Part shown: in pieces, positions 11,974-26,865 of the stretch
Layout of the letters: each line of letters starts with the position of its first letter
How positions within the stretch are numbered: the first letter of the stretch is position 1
Assembly (NCBI RefSeq): GCF_030398335.1
Contig: NZ_JAOAOP010000006.1
Span: 1-64,000, forward strand
From: Aquibium sp. A9E412
Lineage (GTDB): Bacteria > Pseudomonadota > Alphaproteobacteria > Rhizobiales > Rhizobiaceae
DNA: 64,000 nt
Reading direction: 5' to 3'
Program-made: the position numbers and the translations under genes
The notes under the pieces: generated by a model
Databases searched by the model: none
What the model was told of the DNA's origin: nothing
The model's input: only the letters and a program-made list of their open reading frames with translations

Positions 11974-12180
11974 GCGGAGCCTGCGTGCGCACGGGTTGCG
12001 AAGGCGGCCGGCGGCCGCCGCCGTCCGGTTTAGGCAGCCCGCCGCCTCCAGGCAACCGGCGCGGCTTGGTCCAGCACGCTTCCGTCACGGCAAGTTGATG
12101 CGGGCAGCGGTCCGCCCGGCGCTATCATGGCACCGGCCGCGCCCGCTGCGGCGGGGCGGCCGGCAACAGGGAGGTCAGCC

Positions 12181-12723
12181 ATGCCACGCAGTGCAATCGG
12201 CATCCTCGGCGCGCTGGCGCTCGCCGCGCCGCTCGCAGCCGGCCCCGCCTGGGCGGCCGGCGGCGGCGGTGGCGGCGGCGGCAACGCCGCCACCCAGTGC
12301 ACCAACGGCAAGGTGTGGGATTCACGCCAGCAGAAGTGCGTCGATCCGCAGGACAGCCGCCTCGACACCGAGACGCTCTACGCCGCCGGCCGCGATCTGG
12401 CACGGGCGGAGCGCTACGGCGAGGCGATCCGCGTGCTCAGCCTCGCCGCCGACCGCGGCGATCCGCGCATCCTCAACTATCTCGGCTACGCGCACCGCAA
12501 GCAGGGCCGCGTCCGCGTCGGTCTCGGCTACTATCAGGAGGCGCTGGCGATCGACCCGGACTTCACGCTGGCGCGGGAATATCTGGGCGAGGCCTATCTG
12601 CAGATGGGCGACGTGGCCGCCGCCGAACGGCAGCTCGGCGAGATCGCCGCGCGCTGCGGCACCGGCTGCGCCGAACATGCCGAGCTCGAGCGGCAGATCG
12701 CCGCGCATGTGGCGGGCGGCTGA
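12181..12723 (+). CDS. Exported TPR-repeat protein
   Basis: A 180-residue protein with a signal peptide (cleavage after AWA near residue 25) followed by a run of eight glycines. A short Cys-containing region (QCTNGKVWDSRQQKC) probably closes a disulfide loop. Two to three tetratricopeptide-like helix pairs cover about residues 64-175, for example YAAGRDLARAERYGEAIRVL and YYQEALAIDPDFTLAREYLG. A periplasmic scaffold role is likely. ATG at 12181 follows AGGGAGG. The stop is 18 bases from the stop of the convergent sugar dehydrogenase gene. Confidence 0.8.
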   Translation: MPRSAIGILGALALAAPLAAGPAWAAGGGGGGGGNAATQCTNGKVWDSRQQKCVDPQDSRLDTETLYAAGRDLARAERYGEAIRVLSLAADRGDPRILNYLGYAHRKQGRVRVGLGYYQEALAIDPDFTLAREYLGEAYLQMGDVAAAERQLGEIAARCGTGCAEHAELERQIAAHVAGG

Positions 12724-12741
12724 CGCGGCCGCGGCGCGCGC

Positions 12742-13878
12742 TCAGCCGGCGCGCGTCAGCCGGACGATCTCGCCGTCGGGCTTGTCGCTGAGCAGCCACA
12801 CGGAGCCGTCGGGCGCCACGTCGATGTCGCGGATGCGGCCGAAGGCGCCCTCGAGCAGCCGTTCCTCGCCGATGATCGCGCCGGACGCGTCGCGCTTCAG
12901 CCGGCTGACGAGCTGGTATTTCAGCGCGCCGACCAGCAGGTCGCCGCGCCACTCGGGAAACATCGCGCCGTCGTAGACGACCGCGTCGGACGGTGCGATC
13001 GAGGGGTCCCAGTGGTAGAGCGGCGGGCGGTAGCCGGGCGCCTGGCTGCCGACCCCGATGCGGGCGCCGGAGTAGTGCCGGCCGTAGCTGACCACCGGCC
13101 AGCCGTAATTGCCGCCCGGTGCCGGCCGGTTGACCTCGTCGCCGCCGCGCGCGCCGTGCTCGACCGTCCACAGCGCGTCGGTCACCGGGTCCCACAGCGC
13201 GCCCTGCGGGTTGCGGTGGCCGATCGACCACAGCTCGGGCAGCGCGTCGGCGCGGTCGCGGAAGGGATTGTCCGCCGGCACGCTGCCGTCCGTGGCGATG
13301 CGCAGCACCGAGCCGGCGGCGTCCCGCGCGTCCTGCGCGCGATCCTGCTCGCCGCGGTCGCCGATGGTGACGAAGAGCGTGCCGTCGGGCGCGACGACGA
13401 GGCGCGACCCGAAATGCCGGCCCGACCCGGTCTTGCGCGGCATGGAATAGATCACCCTGACGTCATCGAGCCGCGGCCGGCCGTCCTCCTGTACCAGGCG
13501 GGCGCGCGCCACCGCGGTGCCGGCGCCGCCGTCGCCCGGCTCGGCATAGGCGAGGAAGACGGTGCCGGAGCGGGCGAAGTCACCGGCCACGGCGACGTCG
13601 AGCAGGCCGCCCTGGCCGGTGGCGGCGACCGGCGGCACGCCGGCGACGGGCTCCGACAGGAGGCCGTCGCGGAACAGCCGCAGCCGGCCCGGCCGCTCGG
13701 TCACCAGCGCGGCACCGTCCGGCAGGAAGGCGAGACCCCAGGGATGGGCGAGCCCGTCGGCCAGGATCTCGGCTTCGAGCGTCACGGCCTCGCTGCGGAA
13801 GGTCTGCGCCGCGGCGTGCGGCGCGGCGAGGCCGAGGCCGGCGGCGAGCGCCAGAACGGCGGCAAACGGCATGGGCAT
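12742..13878 (-). CDS. Periplasmic PQQ-dependent sugar dehydrogenase (aldose sugar dehydrogenase-like)
   Basis: A 378-residue exported six-bladed propeller of the soluble glucose/aldose sugar dehydrogenase family (YliI/Asd type), which oxidises aldoses with pyrroloquinoline quinone. It has a signal peptide ending near AAAQ. Family landmarks include AHPWGLAFLPDG, the GSGRHFGSRLV segment, the calcium-site region ITIGDRGEQDRAQD, IGHRNPQGA with the conserved His/Arg, and VEHGARGGDEVN near the C-terminal third. The ATG at 13878 is preceded by GAGGAGGAG seven bases away; a longer open frame upstream lacks a signal peptide. It is divergent from greA. Confidence 0.9.
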   Translation of the reverse strand: MPMPFAAVLALAAGLGLAAPHAAAQTFRSEAVTLEAEILADGLAHPWGLAFLPDGAALVTERPGRLRLFRDGLLSEPVAGVPPVAATGQGGLLDVAVAGDFARSGTVFLAYAEPGDGGAGTAVARARLVQEDGRPRLDDVRVIYSMPRKTGSGRHFGSRLVVAPDGTLFVTIGDRGEQDRAQDARDAAGSVLRIATDGSVPADNPFRDRADALPELWSIGHRNPQGALWDPVTDALWTVEHGARGGDEVNRPAPGGNYGWPVVSYGRHYSGARIGVGSQAPGYRPPLYHWDPSIAPSDAVVYDGAMFPEWRGDLLVGALKYQLVSRLKRDASGAIIGEERLLEGAFGRIRDIDVAPDGSVWLLSDKPDGEIVRLTRAG

Positions 13879-14003
13879 GGCGGTTCTCCTCCTCACCTTC
13901 GGCGAGATAGGACGGCGCCGCCGCGCCACAAGACCGGCGGCGCACGGGCGGCCGGACCGGATGCCGCAGGCCGCGAAATTTGTCGTGAAATTGCGTATGG
14001 AAC

Positions 14004-14012
14004 TGGTATATT
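14004..14012 (+). promoter_or_regulatory. Extended -10 promoter for greA
   Basis: TGGTATATT is a TG-N-TATATT extended -10 element, standing out in an otherwise GC-rich stretch. A good -35 at proper spacing is not present, which is acceptable for an extended -10 promoter. The predicted start, around 14018-14020, lies only about 10 bases before the leader terminator at 14028. Strand and distance fit greA, whose ATG is at 14136. Confidence 0.5.
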
Positions 14013-14027
14013 CAGGGCGGTTTGCTC

Positions 14028-14072
14028 GAAAACGGTTCCGTTGGCGGACGCTGTCGGACCGTTTTCTTTTTT
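14028..14072 (+). terminator. Terminator in the greA leader (attenuator candidate)
   Basis: GAAAACGGT, one bulged T and CCG pair with CGGACCGTTTTC around a 14-base loop, and six T residues follow (14067-14072). No plus-strand gene lies upstream: the neighbour at 13878 is divergent. The terminator therefore sits in the 5' leader of greA, 64 bases before its start. A leader ending here would give a short RNA of about 50 nucleotides. Confidence 0.75.
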
Positions 14073-14135
14073 GTGTCTTGTCTTCACCGCCGGCGGCACT
14101 TCGGGCCGGCGCAAAGCCAGGAAAGGTTGAGTGAC

Positions 14136-14609
14136 ATGAACAAGGTCCCGATGACCCAGGGGGGCTTCGAATCGCTGAAGGAGGAGCTGCGCTGGCGCCA
14201 GCAGGAAGAGCGGCCGCGTATCATCGAGGCGATCGCCGAGGCGCGGGCGCATGGGGATCTGTCGGAGAACGCCGAATACCACTCGGCCAAGGAAGCGCAG
14301 AGCCACAACGAGGGCCGCATCGGCGAGCTCGAGGACCTGATCGCACGCGCCGAGGTGATCGACGTGTCGAAGCTGTCGGGCTCCAGCGTCAAGTTCGGCG
14401 CCACGGTGGTGCTCGTCGACGAGGACACCGAGGAAGAAAAGACCTACCAGATCGTCGGCGACCAGGAGGCCGACGTGAAGTCGGGCCGCATCTCCATCTC
14501 CTCGCCCATCGCACGGGCGCTGATCGGCAAGGAGGTCGGCGATTCCGTCGAGGTCAACGCGCCGGGCGGCGCGCGCGGCTACGAGATCGTCAAGGTGCAG
14601 TGGGGCTGA
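14136..14609 (+). CDS. greA: Transcription elongation factor GreA
   Basis: A 157-residue GreA, which enters the secondary channel of RNA polymerase and stimulates cleavage of backtracked RNA. The N-terminal coiled coil spans residues 1-75. Its tip carries [11 protein letters not shown], with the acidic pair at the position that supports catalysis, preceded by [14 protein letters not shown]. The C-terminal FKBP-like domain (80-157) contains [20 protein letters not shown]. Length is standard (about 158). ATG at 14136 follows AAAGGTTGAG. Its leader contains an extended -10 and a strong terminator, so GreA may be controlled by early termination. Confidence 0.97.
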
Positions 14610-14633
14610 GGCCCGCCGCGGCAGCGCCGACCG

Positions 14634-15638
14634 TCAGTCCCCCGCAAGCAGGGCCTCCGCCGTCTCCAGCACCTGCTCGGGCGTGATCGTCCGGCCGGCC
14701 GGCACGGCCGCGCGGCGCGAGACGGGCGCCAGGCCGGGATCGTCGGGCAGGGCGCTCAGCGTCGCGCAGCGCCGGCCGACCGGCCCGGTCAGGCCGGGCC
14801 GTGTCGCCAGGAACAGCGCCACCGTCGGCACGTCGAGCGCGGTCGCCAGATGCGTCAGCCCGGTGTCGACGCCGATCGCCAGCCGCGCGCCGGCGATGTG
14901 GCCGGCCAGCGCGGCGAGATCGGTCTTCGGCAGCACCACGGTTTCCGGCACCGCGGCGGCGATCGCCGCGGCGGTGGCGCGCTCGGCGTCGTCGGCATAG
15001 GTGGTGACCGGCGTCAGGCCACGCTCGACCAGGCCGCGCGCCGTCCGCGCCCAGGCGGCGTCGGGCCATTTCTTGCTCTGCCAGGTGGTGCCGTGCAGCA
15101 GGAAGGCGCGGTCGCCATTGCCGCGCGCCGGCATGCGCGGCGCAGCGAGGCCGTAGCGCACCGTGTCGAGATCCGGCCGGTAGCCGAGCGCCTGGCCGAA
15201 CAGCAGCCGCGTGCGGGCGATGGCGTGCAGCCGGCGCGGCACGGCGTGGCGCTCGGCATAGAGCGGCGCGATCCAGCCCTCGCGGGCGCTGGCGCGGTCG
15301 AATCCGGCGACCGGCGCGCCGGCCAGGCGCGCCAGCAGCGCGCTCTTCATCAGCCCCTGGGCGTCGAGCACGCGGTCGTAGCCCGCCGCCTTCAGCCGGC
15401 GGCGCAGATCGCCGACGGCGCTGCGCGTCGCCGCGTCGAGCGGCCGGCGGCGCCAGCGCCGCATCGCGACCGGGATGGCGGTGCCGATGCCGGGATGCAG
15501 CGCGACAAGCGGCGCGAACGGCGCCTCGACCAGCCAGTCGATCGCCAGCCCCTCGACCGCCGCCAGCGCATCGGTGACGGCCGGGAAGGTGTGGATGACG
15601 TCGCCCATCGACGACGTCTTGACGAGAAGCAGCCTCAC
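14634..15638 (-). CDS. waaC: LPS heptosyltransferase I WaaC
   Basis: A 334-residue GT9 glycosyltransferase that adds the first L-glycero-D-manno-heptose to Kdo of the LPS inner core, at the cytoplasmic face of the inner membrane. It opens with [19 protein letters not shown], the classic WaaC N-terminus with the catalytic-region Asp13. The C-terminal donor-binding half has LLHGTTWQSKKWP and GVDTGLTHLATAL. The start is the GTG at 15638, overlapping the waaF stop by four bases (GTGA). It is the last gene of the hldD-waaF-waaC operon. Some ambiguity between heptosyltransferase I and II always remains without alignment, but KTSSMGDVIHT is typical of type I. Confidence 0.9.
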   Translation of the reverse strand: MRLLLVKTSSMGDVIHTFPAVTDALAAVEGLAIDWLVEAPFAPLVALHPGIGTAIPVAMRRWRRRPLDAATRSAVGDLRRRLKAAGYDRVLDAQGLMKSALLARLAGAPVAGFDRASAREGWIAPLYAERHAVPRRLHAIARTRLLFGQALGYRPDLDTVRYGLAAPRMPARGNGDRAFLLHGTTWQSKKWPDAAWARTARGLVERGLTPVTTYADDAERATAAAIAAAVPETVVLPKTDLAALAGHIAGARLAIGVDTGLTHLATALDVPTVALFLATRPGLTGPVGRRCATLSALPDDPGLAPVSRRAAVPAGRTITPEQVLETAEALLAGD

Positions 15639-16639
15639 GGCGCCGCGGCCGGGACGAGCCGGTCGACGGCGGCCAGCACGCGCTCGACCGCGAGCCGGTT
15701 CATGCAGTCGGTGTGGCCGAGCGGGCACTCGCGGCGGTGGCAGGGCGAGCAGTCGAGCGCCAGCGTGACCAGCTCGCGGCGCGCCGTCAGCGGCGGCGTG
15801 TTGGCCGGCGAGGTCGAGCCGTAGATCGCCACCACCGGCACGCCGACGGCGGCGGCGATATGCATCAGGCCGCTGTCGTTGGTCACCGCCACGCGGGCAC
15901 CGGCGATCAGGTCGACGGCGTCCTCCAGCCGCGTTCGGCCGGCCAGATCGATCGCCCGCGGCGCCGCGGCGGCGATCTCGGCCGTCACCGGGCGGTCGCG
16001 CGGCGAGCCGAGCAGGACGACCGGCAGGCCGCGCGCGGCGAGCCGCTCGGCGAGCGCGGCGTAGCTGGCCGCCGGCCAGCGCTTCGACGGGCCGAACTCG
16101 GCCCCCGGCATGAAGGCGGCGTAGCCGCCCGCCGTCAGCCCGTGCGCGGCCAGCAGCGCCGCTTGGTTGTCGCCGTCGACCGCGAGCCGCGGATGGCGCA
16201 GCGCGGCGTCGCCGGCGAGCGTGGCGAAGGCCTGCGCGGTCTTGCGCTTCATCGCCTCGGGCAGCGGCACGATGTCGTTGAGGAGCCCGTAGCGCATCTC
16301 GCGGCGGTGGCCGGTGCGCACGGGGATGCCGGCGAAGAAGGGCACCAGCGCCGACTTCCAGCTGCCCGGCAGCACATAGGCGCGGTCGTAGCGGCCGGCC
16401 AGCGCGCGGCCGAGCCGGCGGCGGGCGGCGAGCGCGAGCCGGCCGCGCGCGAAGGGCGCCTCGAGGCCCTCGCGCACCTGCGGCATGCGCGCGACCAGCG
16501 GCTTGGCCCAGGCCGGCGCCAGCACGTCGATCGCGGCGTCCGGCCAGCGCTCCTTGAGCGCGGCGAACAGGCACTGCGCCATCACCATGTCGCCGACCCA
16601 GGCGGGCCCGATCACCAGGATCGACGGTGCTTCAGCCAT
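15635..16639 (-). CDS. waaF: LPS heptosyltransferase II WaaF
   Basis: A 334-residue GT9 enzyme that adds the second heptose to the LPS inner core. Residues 6-24 read [17 protein letters not shown], the WaaF N-terminal pattern. The middle carries [15 protein letters not shown], where WaaC proteins have HGTTWQ-KKWP, and [21 protein letters not shown] follows. Four cysteines near the C-terminus (the region [16 protein letters not shown]) match the usual WaaF ending. The ATG at 16639 lies inside the 3' end of hldD, overlapping it by 28 bases, which implies translational coupling. Confidence 0.93.
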
Positions 16640-17562
16640 TCCACATAGTCCGTCACGCCCGCGCGCACGTCGCGGAAGGCGCCGTTGTAGCCGGCCCGGC
16701 GCAGGCGGCCGATGTCGGCCTGCGTGAAGCTCTGGTAGCGGTCCTTCAGGTGGTCGGGAAAGTCGATGTACTCGACGGCGCCGCGCCCGGTCGCCGCGAT
16801 GACGCTCTCGGCGACGCTGCGAAACGGCTCGGCGCGGCCGGTGCCGCAGTTGAAGATGCCGCTCGCCCCGCCGTTGAGGAACCACAGGTTGACGTCGGCG
16901 ACGTCGGCGACGTGGACGAAGTCGCGGCTCTGCTCGCCGGGGCCGTAGCCGTCATGGGCGCCGAACAGCTTCGGGTTCTCGCCGGCCGTCACCTGGTTGA
17001 ACAGGTGGAAGGCGACCGAGGCCATCGCGCCCTTGTGGTCCTCGCGCGGGCCGTAGACGTTGAAATAGCGCAGGCCGACGACCTGCGACTGGCCCTCGAT
17101 CAGCGCGACGCGGCGCACATAGTCGTCGAACAGCTTCTTGGAATAGCCGTAGACGTTGAGCGGGCGCTCCAGCGCCGGCTCTTCGGCGAACGCCTCGCTG
17201 GCGCCGTAGACGGCGGCCGAGGAGGCGTAGAGGAAGGGCACCCGCGCCTTCAGGCAGAAGTGCAGCAGCGCCTTCGAGTAGGCGTAGTTGACCTCCATCA
17301 TGTAGCGGCCGTTCCACTCGGTGGTCGCCGAGCAGGCGCCCTGGTGGAACACCGCCTCGACCGGGCCGACGGCGGAGCGGCCGACGCGCGCGAGAAAGGC
17401 GTCCTTGTCCTCGTAGTCGGCGATTGACAGGTCGGCCAGGTTGCGGAACTTGGTGCCGTCGGTCAGGTCGTCGACGACGAGAATGTCGTCGCGGCCGGCC
17501 GCGTTGAGCGCGGCCACGATGTTGCTGCCGATCATGCCCGCGCCGCCGGTGACGACGATCAT
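16612..17562 (-). CDS. hldD: ADP-L-glycero-D-manno-heptose 6-epimerase HldD
   Basis: A 316-residue SDR enzyme that converts ADP-D-glycero- to ADP-L-glycero-D-manno-heptose, the last step of the LPS heptose donor pathway. It has [11 protein letters not shown] at residues 4-14 (NADP binding), [13 protein letters not shown], the catalytic [14 protein letters not shown] (Tyr and Lys in Y-x-x-x-K) and a C-terminal substrate domain. The ATG at 17562 starts MIVVTGGAG directly. It heads a minus-strand operon with waaF and waaC and is divergent from hldE across 111 bases, so one control region probably serves the whole pathway. Confidence 0.96.
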
Positions 17563-26705: not shown

Positions 26706-26751
26706 GCCACGCTGCTTGTTATTTGAGCAAAGAACGCTCATATCAGAGCCA

Positions 26752-26865
26752 TCTCGTGAGCGTGTTCTCCTCCCATTAACGCTCGCGAGTGTTCCCCTCT
26801 GGAGGTTTCGCCTTACAGGCACTTCCAATCTTGAGCCGGATCTTCGCGATCCGGCTCTTTTTTTT
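26752..26865 (+). ncRNA. abcR: AbcR-like (alpha-r15) trans-acting small RNA
   Basis: A predicted RNA of about 113 nucleotides immediately after lsrB. A first hairpin pairs 26753-26762 with 26780-26789 (ten pairs, one of them G-T). Its 17-base loop exposes TTCTCCTCCC, an anti-Shine-Dalgarno sequence. A second pyrimidine motif TGTTCCCCTC (26790-26799) lies in a likely unpaired stretch, and a strong terminator closes the RNA. This two-motif layout is that of AbcR1/AbcR2 of Rhizobiales, Hfq-dependent sRNAs that block ribosome binding on many ABC-transporter mRNAs. A promoter-like TTGTTA (26717) and TATCAG (26741) with an 18-base gap predict a start near 26752. The neighbouring LsrB/VtlR gene is the known activator in relatives. 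Only one copy is visible here. Confidence 0.75.
26833..26865 (+). terminator. Terminator of the AbcR-like sRNA
   Basis: GAGCCGGATC pairs perfectly with GATCCGGCTC around a 5-base loop (TTCGC), followed by eight T residues (26858-26865). This is the strongest intrinsic terminator in the window. No open reading frame ends near it, and the lsrB stop is about 180 bases upstream. Confidence 0.93.

Follow-up and report, generated by a model that had tools for sequence, protein, structure and literature searches.

A conserved terminator-like hairpin in the leader of greA in Rhizobiaceae and its probable role as a transcription attenuator

The greA leader of Aquibium

The greA gene of Aquibium sp. 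A9E412 (14136..14609, + strand), whose product, the transcription factor GreA, carries the Pfam domains PF03449 (GreA_GreB_N) and PF01272 (GreA_GreB), lies in the window, i.e. the whole stretch of 64,000 nucleotides analysed here, and its upstream neighbour is a divergently oriented gene for a glucose/sorbosone dehydrogenase (GSDH, PF07995; 12742..13929, − strand). The host assembly (G000) measures 4.28 Mb and the nearest greA relatives are found in Mesorhizobium, Rhizobium, Ensifer and related genera. Downstream of greA, between 14634 and 19763, several frames resemble heptosyltransferase and heptose-synthesis genes of lipopolysaccharide (LPS) formation, as judged by eye.

The leader between the two divergent genes, all of it read on the + strand, contains a -35-like hexamer GTGAAA (13985..13990), spaced 16 nt 5' of TATATT, and the extended -10 element TGGTATATT (14004..14012), recognised both from the sequence and by a scan for sigma-70-like sites, which found the greA promoter alone in 12000-17000 (shuffle mean 0.0). 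Transcription would start at about 14019, 7 nt 3' of the -10 element, and 9 nt further downstream begins a hairpin (14028..14066) whose stem of 15 pairs consists of 12 outer pairs with one bulge and 3 inner pairs; it was found by folding with flanks and is kept across Rhizobiaceae. Its left arm contains the core GGTTCCG (14034..14040), conserved in the comparison of Rhizobiaceae leaders, and its right arm is followed by a tract of six Ts (14067..14072), so that a transcript ending there would be a leader RNA of about 54 nt (14019..14072). From the T tract it is 63 nt to the ATG of greA at 14136, and this stretch holds the likely ribosome binding site GGAAAGG (14120..14126). The arrangement given in the preliminary description, an extended -10 element followed by a hairpin and six Ts before greA, is thus present, with the stem length and distance stated here. 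The open reading frame list shows the greA frame to be open upstream as well, as far as a TTG start at 14022.

Folded with its flanks, the hairpin has an energy of -21.2 kcal/mol (z -2.66), and 3 of 200 shuffled sequences were equally stable. A simple scan found two terminator-like sites in 5 kb with 1.3 expected; as such sites are not rare in the DNA of the window, the single site before greA proves little. The hairpin of the window taken alone is only modestly above chance, and it is its conservation that constitutes the decisive evidence.

Conservation and structure of the leader hairpin in Rhizobiaceae

The greA loci gathered comprise 127 from the family, with some overlap among collections, and others from the order, class and phylum; a GreA relative is encoded in 307 of the 308 collected loci, the exception being L002. 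When the greA leaders of relatives were compared, as had been proposed earlier, the hairpin and T tract recurred in 121 of the 127 Rhizobiaceae loci, a count that includes L217, where the copy sits farther upstream of greA; a few of the loci that bear the element, for example L224, L225 and L227, are strongly diverged in sequence. Among the six loci without it, L050 is a contig that ends 21 nt before greA, and in the other five (L220, L221, L222, L223 and L228) the leader terminator is absent. L220, L222 and L223 belong to small genomes of 1.2-1.5 Mb, and in L220 and L228 carB lies close upstream; the small genomes L173 and L217-L219 retain the element.

With fixed criteria, a terminator-like signal was scored in 112 of 117 unique Rhizobiaceae leaders, compared with 4 of 117 antisense strands and 179 of 702 shuffled sequences, and since about a quarter of the shuffled leaders score, this test is not very strict. 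Outside Rhizobiaceae the same criteria gave 64 of 178 leaders versus 15 of 178 antisense strands and 132 of 1068 shuffles. The same scanner recovers the known GraL terminator of E. coli.

An alignment of 70 Rhizobiaceae leaders shows no variation in the TA of the -10 element or in the first G of the left arm, and hardly any in GGTTCCG and the T tract. The -35 position is occupied by GTGAAA in many leaders of the family and by TGGAAA or TGGCAA in another clade, and an enrichment of G and A is seen 10-12 nt 5' of the ATG. Over 111 unique leaders, information content amounts to 1.70 bits per base in the left arm, a value inflated by the anchoring of the alignment on this motif, and to 0.22 between promoter and stem and 0.19 before the ribosome binding site.

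The position of the hairpin is tied to the promoter. Measured in 101 leaders, the left arm follows the -10 element at a median of 27 nt (quartiles 26-28; 24-30 nt in 92 of them). Its spacing to the ATG is more variable (quartiles 78-99, standard deviation 14.6), which argues that the hairpin is positioned by the start of transcription and not by the gene. In addition, 92 of 106 leaders had their best promoter-like score upstream of the hairpin and 8 had it downstream, the two sides being tied in 6. In the window itself, the best score between the T tract and the ATG is 4, as against 11 on the 5' side of the hairpin, so that a major promoter at 14073-14135, named earlier as a case that would speak against a terminator in the leader, has no support in the sequence. 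If transcription is taken to start a few bases after the -10 element, the RNAs predicted to end at the terminator have a median of 53 nt (86 leaders).

When 95 distinct hairpins were folded singly, the stem mostly had 13-15 pairs and the paired positions of the outer and upper stem changed together, although the pairs counted in this way were chosen by the energy model and hence lean towards pairing. In clade-wise alignments, each pair was kept in 37-46 of 46, 30 of 30 and 8-10 of 10 sequences, and the RNAalifold consensus of the largest clade was weak (-2.7 kcal/mol). On two mixed-clade alignments (A1 and A2), RNAalifold found no common structure, apparently because extra bases shift the right arm in some clades; the model built from A2 was without pairs. 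An exact stem pattern followed by a T run had one match each in 6 of 41 genomes, five of which adjoin greA while that of G028 does not, and being exact it misses most Rhizobiaceae members; a shorter stem pattern without the T run was not specific, with four matches in G000 compared with seven for the control.

The strong conservation of the stem core could also be expected of a symmetric DNA operator bound by a repressor. The fourth core base is T in 92 of the 95 hairpins, even though it is unpaired in 34 of them, and it forms a T-G combination in 31 of 95; the frequency of such G-U pairs, together with a bulge in one clade, a variable right arm and the strand specificity of the signal, leaves an operator hardly credible. 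Likewise, as the predicted 5' end is some 10 nt away, the hairpin might shield the greA mRNA or tune its translation with no terminator involved. The T tract is retained directly after the stem in Rhizobiaceae, the ribosome binding site lies outside the hairpin, and pairing between the T tract and the ribosome binding site gave no signal above shuffles (39 of 86 leaders), and we consider this explanation very improbable.

Upstream neighbours and the relation to carB

One alternative to a terminator acting on greA is a hairpin that serves as the 3' terminator of the upstream unit, ancestrally carAB, and was left in front of greA. Outside Rhizobiaceae (L114-L308: order, class and phylum), carB directly precedes greA in 152 of 179 loci and the hairpin starts at a median of 33 nt after the carB stop, within 23 nt in 23 of 51 cases, so that many of these hairpins, hugging the stop codon as they do, resemble ordinary carB terminators; moreover, some Rhizobiaceae loci have co-oriented upstream neighbours. 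The situation in Rhizobiaceae speaks against this explanation. In the window, the upstream neighbour is the divergent GSDH gene, in line with the earlier statement that no transcript other than that of greA can be affected by the terminator, and in Rhizobiaceae loci with carB nearby there are at least 81 nt between carB and the hairpin, with a promoter in between. Six loci of the family have 1.35-2.2 kb between carB and the hairpin, and there the hairpin stands beside greA. A terminator of an upstream unit is thus quite improbable, and the divergent neighbour in the window and the distance to carB in the family do not fit a carAB 3' terminator. A carB terminator may have been the source from which the leader hairpin arose.

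For 118 unique leaders, the closest upstream gene was sought within 600 nt by a survey that recognised only seven kinds of gene, so that unrecognised genes may lie nearer in some of them; it returned GSDH in 20 leaders and radical SAM in 17 (both divergent), MFS in 10 (6 divergent and 4 co-oriented), TPR in 23, Tle1-like in 7, carB in 11 and other or unknown genes in 30. The element is retained in all 43 leaders with a recognised divergent neighbour, in 9 of 11 with carB and in 26 of 30 with an unknown neighbour. The leader element persists through changes of the upstream gene.

In the carB-greA gap of L195, an order-level locus, a second inverted repeat (GGTTCCGG...CCGGACC) follows the carB-adjacent hairpin and lies nearer to greA, and is perhaps a distant relative of the Rhizobiaceae element.

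A putative attenuator and its relation to known leaders

The element looks like a partial intrinsic terminator placed immediately downstream of the predicted start site, and its form together with its conservation suggests that the signal very probably terminates transcription. The best explanation for the leader as a whole is a promoter-proximal transcription attenuator of greA, to which we assign a probability of about 0.78. RNA polymerase would start near 14019 and make about 54 nt of RNA, a fraction of the complexes would release the short leader RNA at the intrinsic terminator (14028-14072), and the remaining complexes would read through into greA. As judged from the sequences, many greA transcripts in Rhizobiaceae, which comprise soil-dwelling and symbiotic bacteria, probably end early in this manner.

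As to how such an attenuator might be controlled, no antiterminator emerged from pairing of the 5' part, the stretch from the predicted start to the stem, with the left arm (36 of 82 leaders above the shuffled mean). A conserved leader peptide overlapping the hairpin was rejected as a candidate: although 77 of 86 leaders contain start codons, the place and length of the frames are inconsistent among the 45 listed. Given that neither an antiterminator nor a leader peptide was found, control, if any, would more probably lie with a factor that targets RNA polymerase or the left arm as it is being transcribed, a ribosome- or ligand-driven switch being the less probable option. With no alternative pairing and no conserved short open reading frame, the nearest general model is the rimP-leader, in which a terminator of conserved stem sequence likewise stands alone, no alternative structure being visible; it precedes another gene and has another stem motif (PMC2965389).

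Attenuators before greA were reported in 2010 from Proteobacteria to bacilli/Firmicutes, the greA/rnk family ranking seventh (PMC2965389). The greA- and rnk-leaders of Naville and Gautheret share with the leader described here a premature terminator before greA that occurs recurrently, but their figure depicts Enterobacteria, Pseudomonas, Yersinia and bacilli, each with an antiterminator, whereas in Rhizobiaceae we found none (PMC2965389). An alphaproteobacterial greA-leader was not met in the passages of PMC2965389, nor was a greA leader in the main-text passages of PMC3616915, PMC2873474, PMC3738593, PMC2245857, PMC5596092 and PMC7717549, and in the literature searched we found no description of the alphaproteobacterial element as a greA attenuator. 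The class of greA-leader attenuators is already known, and the family-wide element of Rhizobiaceae is probably a new member of it.

The best-studied counterpart is found in E. coli, where the GraL RNAs from the promoter P1 are 49-59 nt long and about one third of the greA transcripts pass the GraL terminator (PMC6829880). Without GreA, a greA-lacZ fusion is about 3.5-fold more active and GraL about 4-fold less abundant; the GreA mutant D41A does not repress (PMC6829880). The mechanism of this feedback is unsolved; it needs the leader and active GreA, is seen in vivo only and is suspected to depend on a missing factor (PMC6829880). In both lineages, the terminator lies between greA's own promoter and the start codon, near the start site, and the RNA is of similar length (about 50 nt for GraL, a predicted median of 53 nt in Rhizobiaceae); in E. 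coli MG1655, read by coordinates, the gene upstream of greA (dacB) is divergent as well. The stem of GraL, compared by eye, is unrelated to that of Rhizobiaceae and shares no core with it, and a DNA similarity search did not detect E. coli greA. The proposed analogue of GraL in an alphaproteobacterium thus holds up with respect to position and near-equal predicted RNA length, with a stem of unrelated sequence. GreA-dependent termination, two overlapping promoters and action in trans have been demonstrated in E. coli only (PMC6829880).

By analogy with E. coli, the attenuator might set the level of GreA itself, with GreA favouring termination; such feedback is the likeliest purpose of the element, and we regard it as plausible at somewhat below even odds. 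More tentatively still, we speculate that Rhizobiaceae possess a GreA-controlled attenuator that arose independently of that of Enterobacteria, with the same layout and RNA length, an unrelated stem and no antiterminator, and in which the emerging RNA might be recognised sequence-specifically at the left arm GGUUCCG, the reader being NusA, polymerase carrying GreA or some other factor. If true, self-limitation of GreA through early termination would have been arrived at more than once. A leader that shares the layout of GraL but not its sequence can show which features matter (distance to the promoter, terminator strength, left-arm motif) and which are accidental, and rhizobia or agrobacteria, being genetically tractable, would allow GreA self-control to be tested in another lineage.

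A trace of the element may already exist in the small RNA literature. The S. meliloti candidate sm23, reported in 2008, lies next to SMc01218 in a divergent region of 292 nt where a promoter and a terminator are predicted; it points into this gene and was undetected by microarray (PMC2573895). As lpsB is SMc01219 (PMC8406287), and greA neighbours lpsB in the same orientation among the LPS genes of Sinorhizobium (PMC3788101), SMc01218 is probably greA, and sm23 is probably the S. meliloti version of the greA leader element, which would give it a specific functional reading; it was, however, listed as an independent sRNA and not as a greA attenuator (PMC2573895). The prediction of sm23 as an sRNA (PMC2573895), together with the fact that GraL acts in trans too (PMC6829880), could be taken to indicate a separate trans-acting sRNA gene with its own terminator, greA being expressed by read-through or from another promoter. 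Conservation of the RNA beyond the hairpin is low (the 0.22 bits per base given above) and there is scant promoter-like sequence between the T tract and greA, which makes a separate sRNA gene rather unlikely as an explanation in place of the attenuator, although the two roles are not mutually exclusive. Rfam at its gathering score returned no match at the leader of the window or in 20 Rhizobiaceae loci; elsewhere in the window, the alphaproteobacterial sRNA family ar15 (RF02345) was matched at 26751-26862 on the + strand with 50.3 bits.
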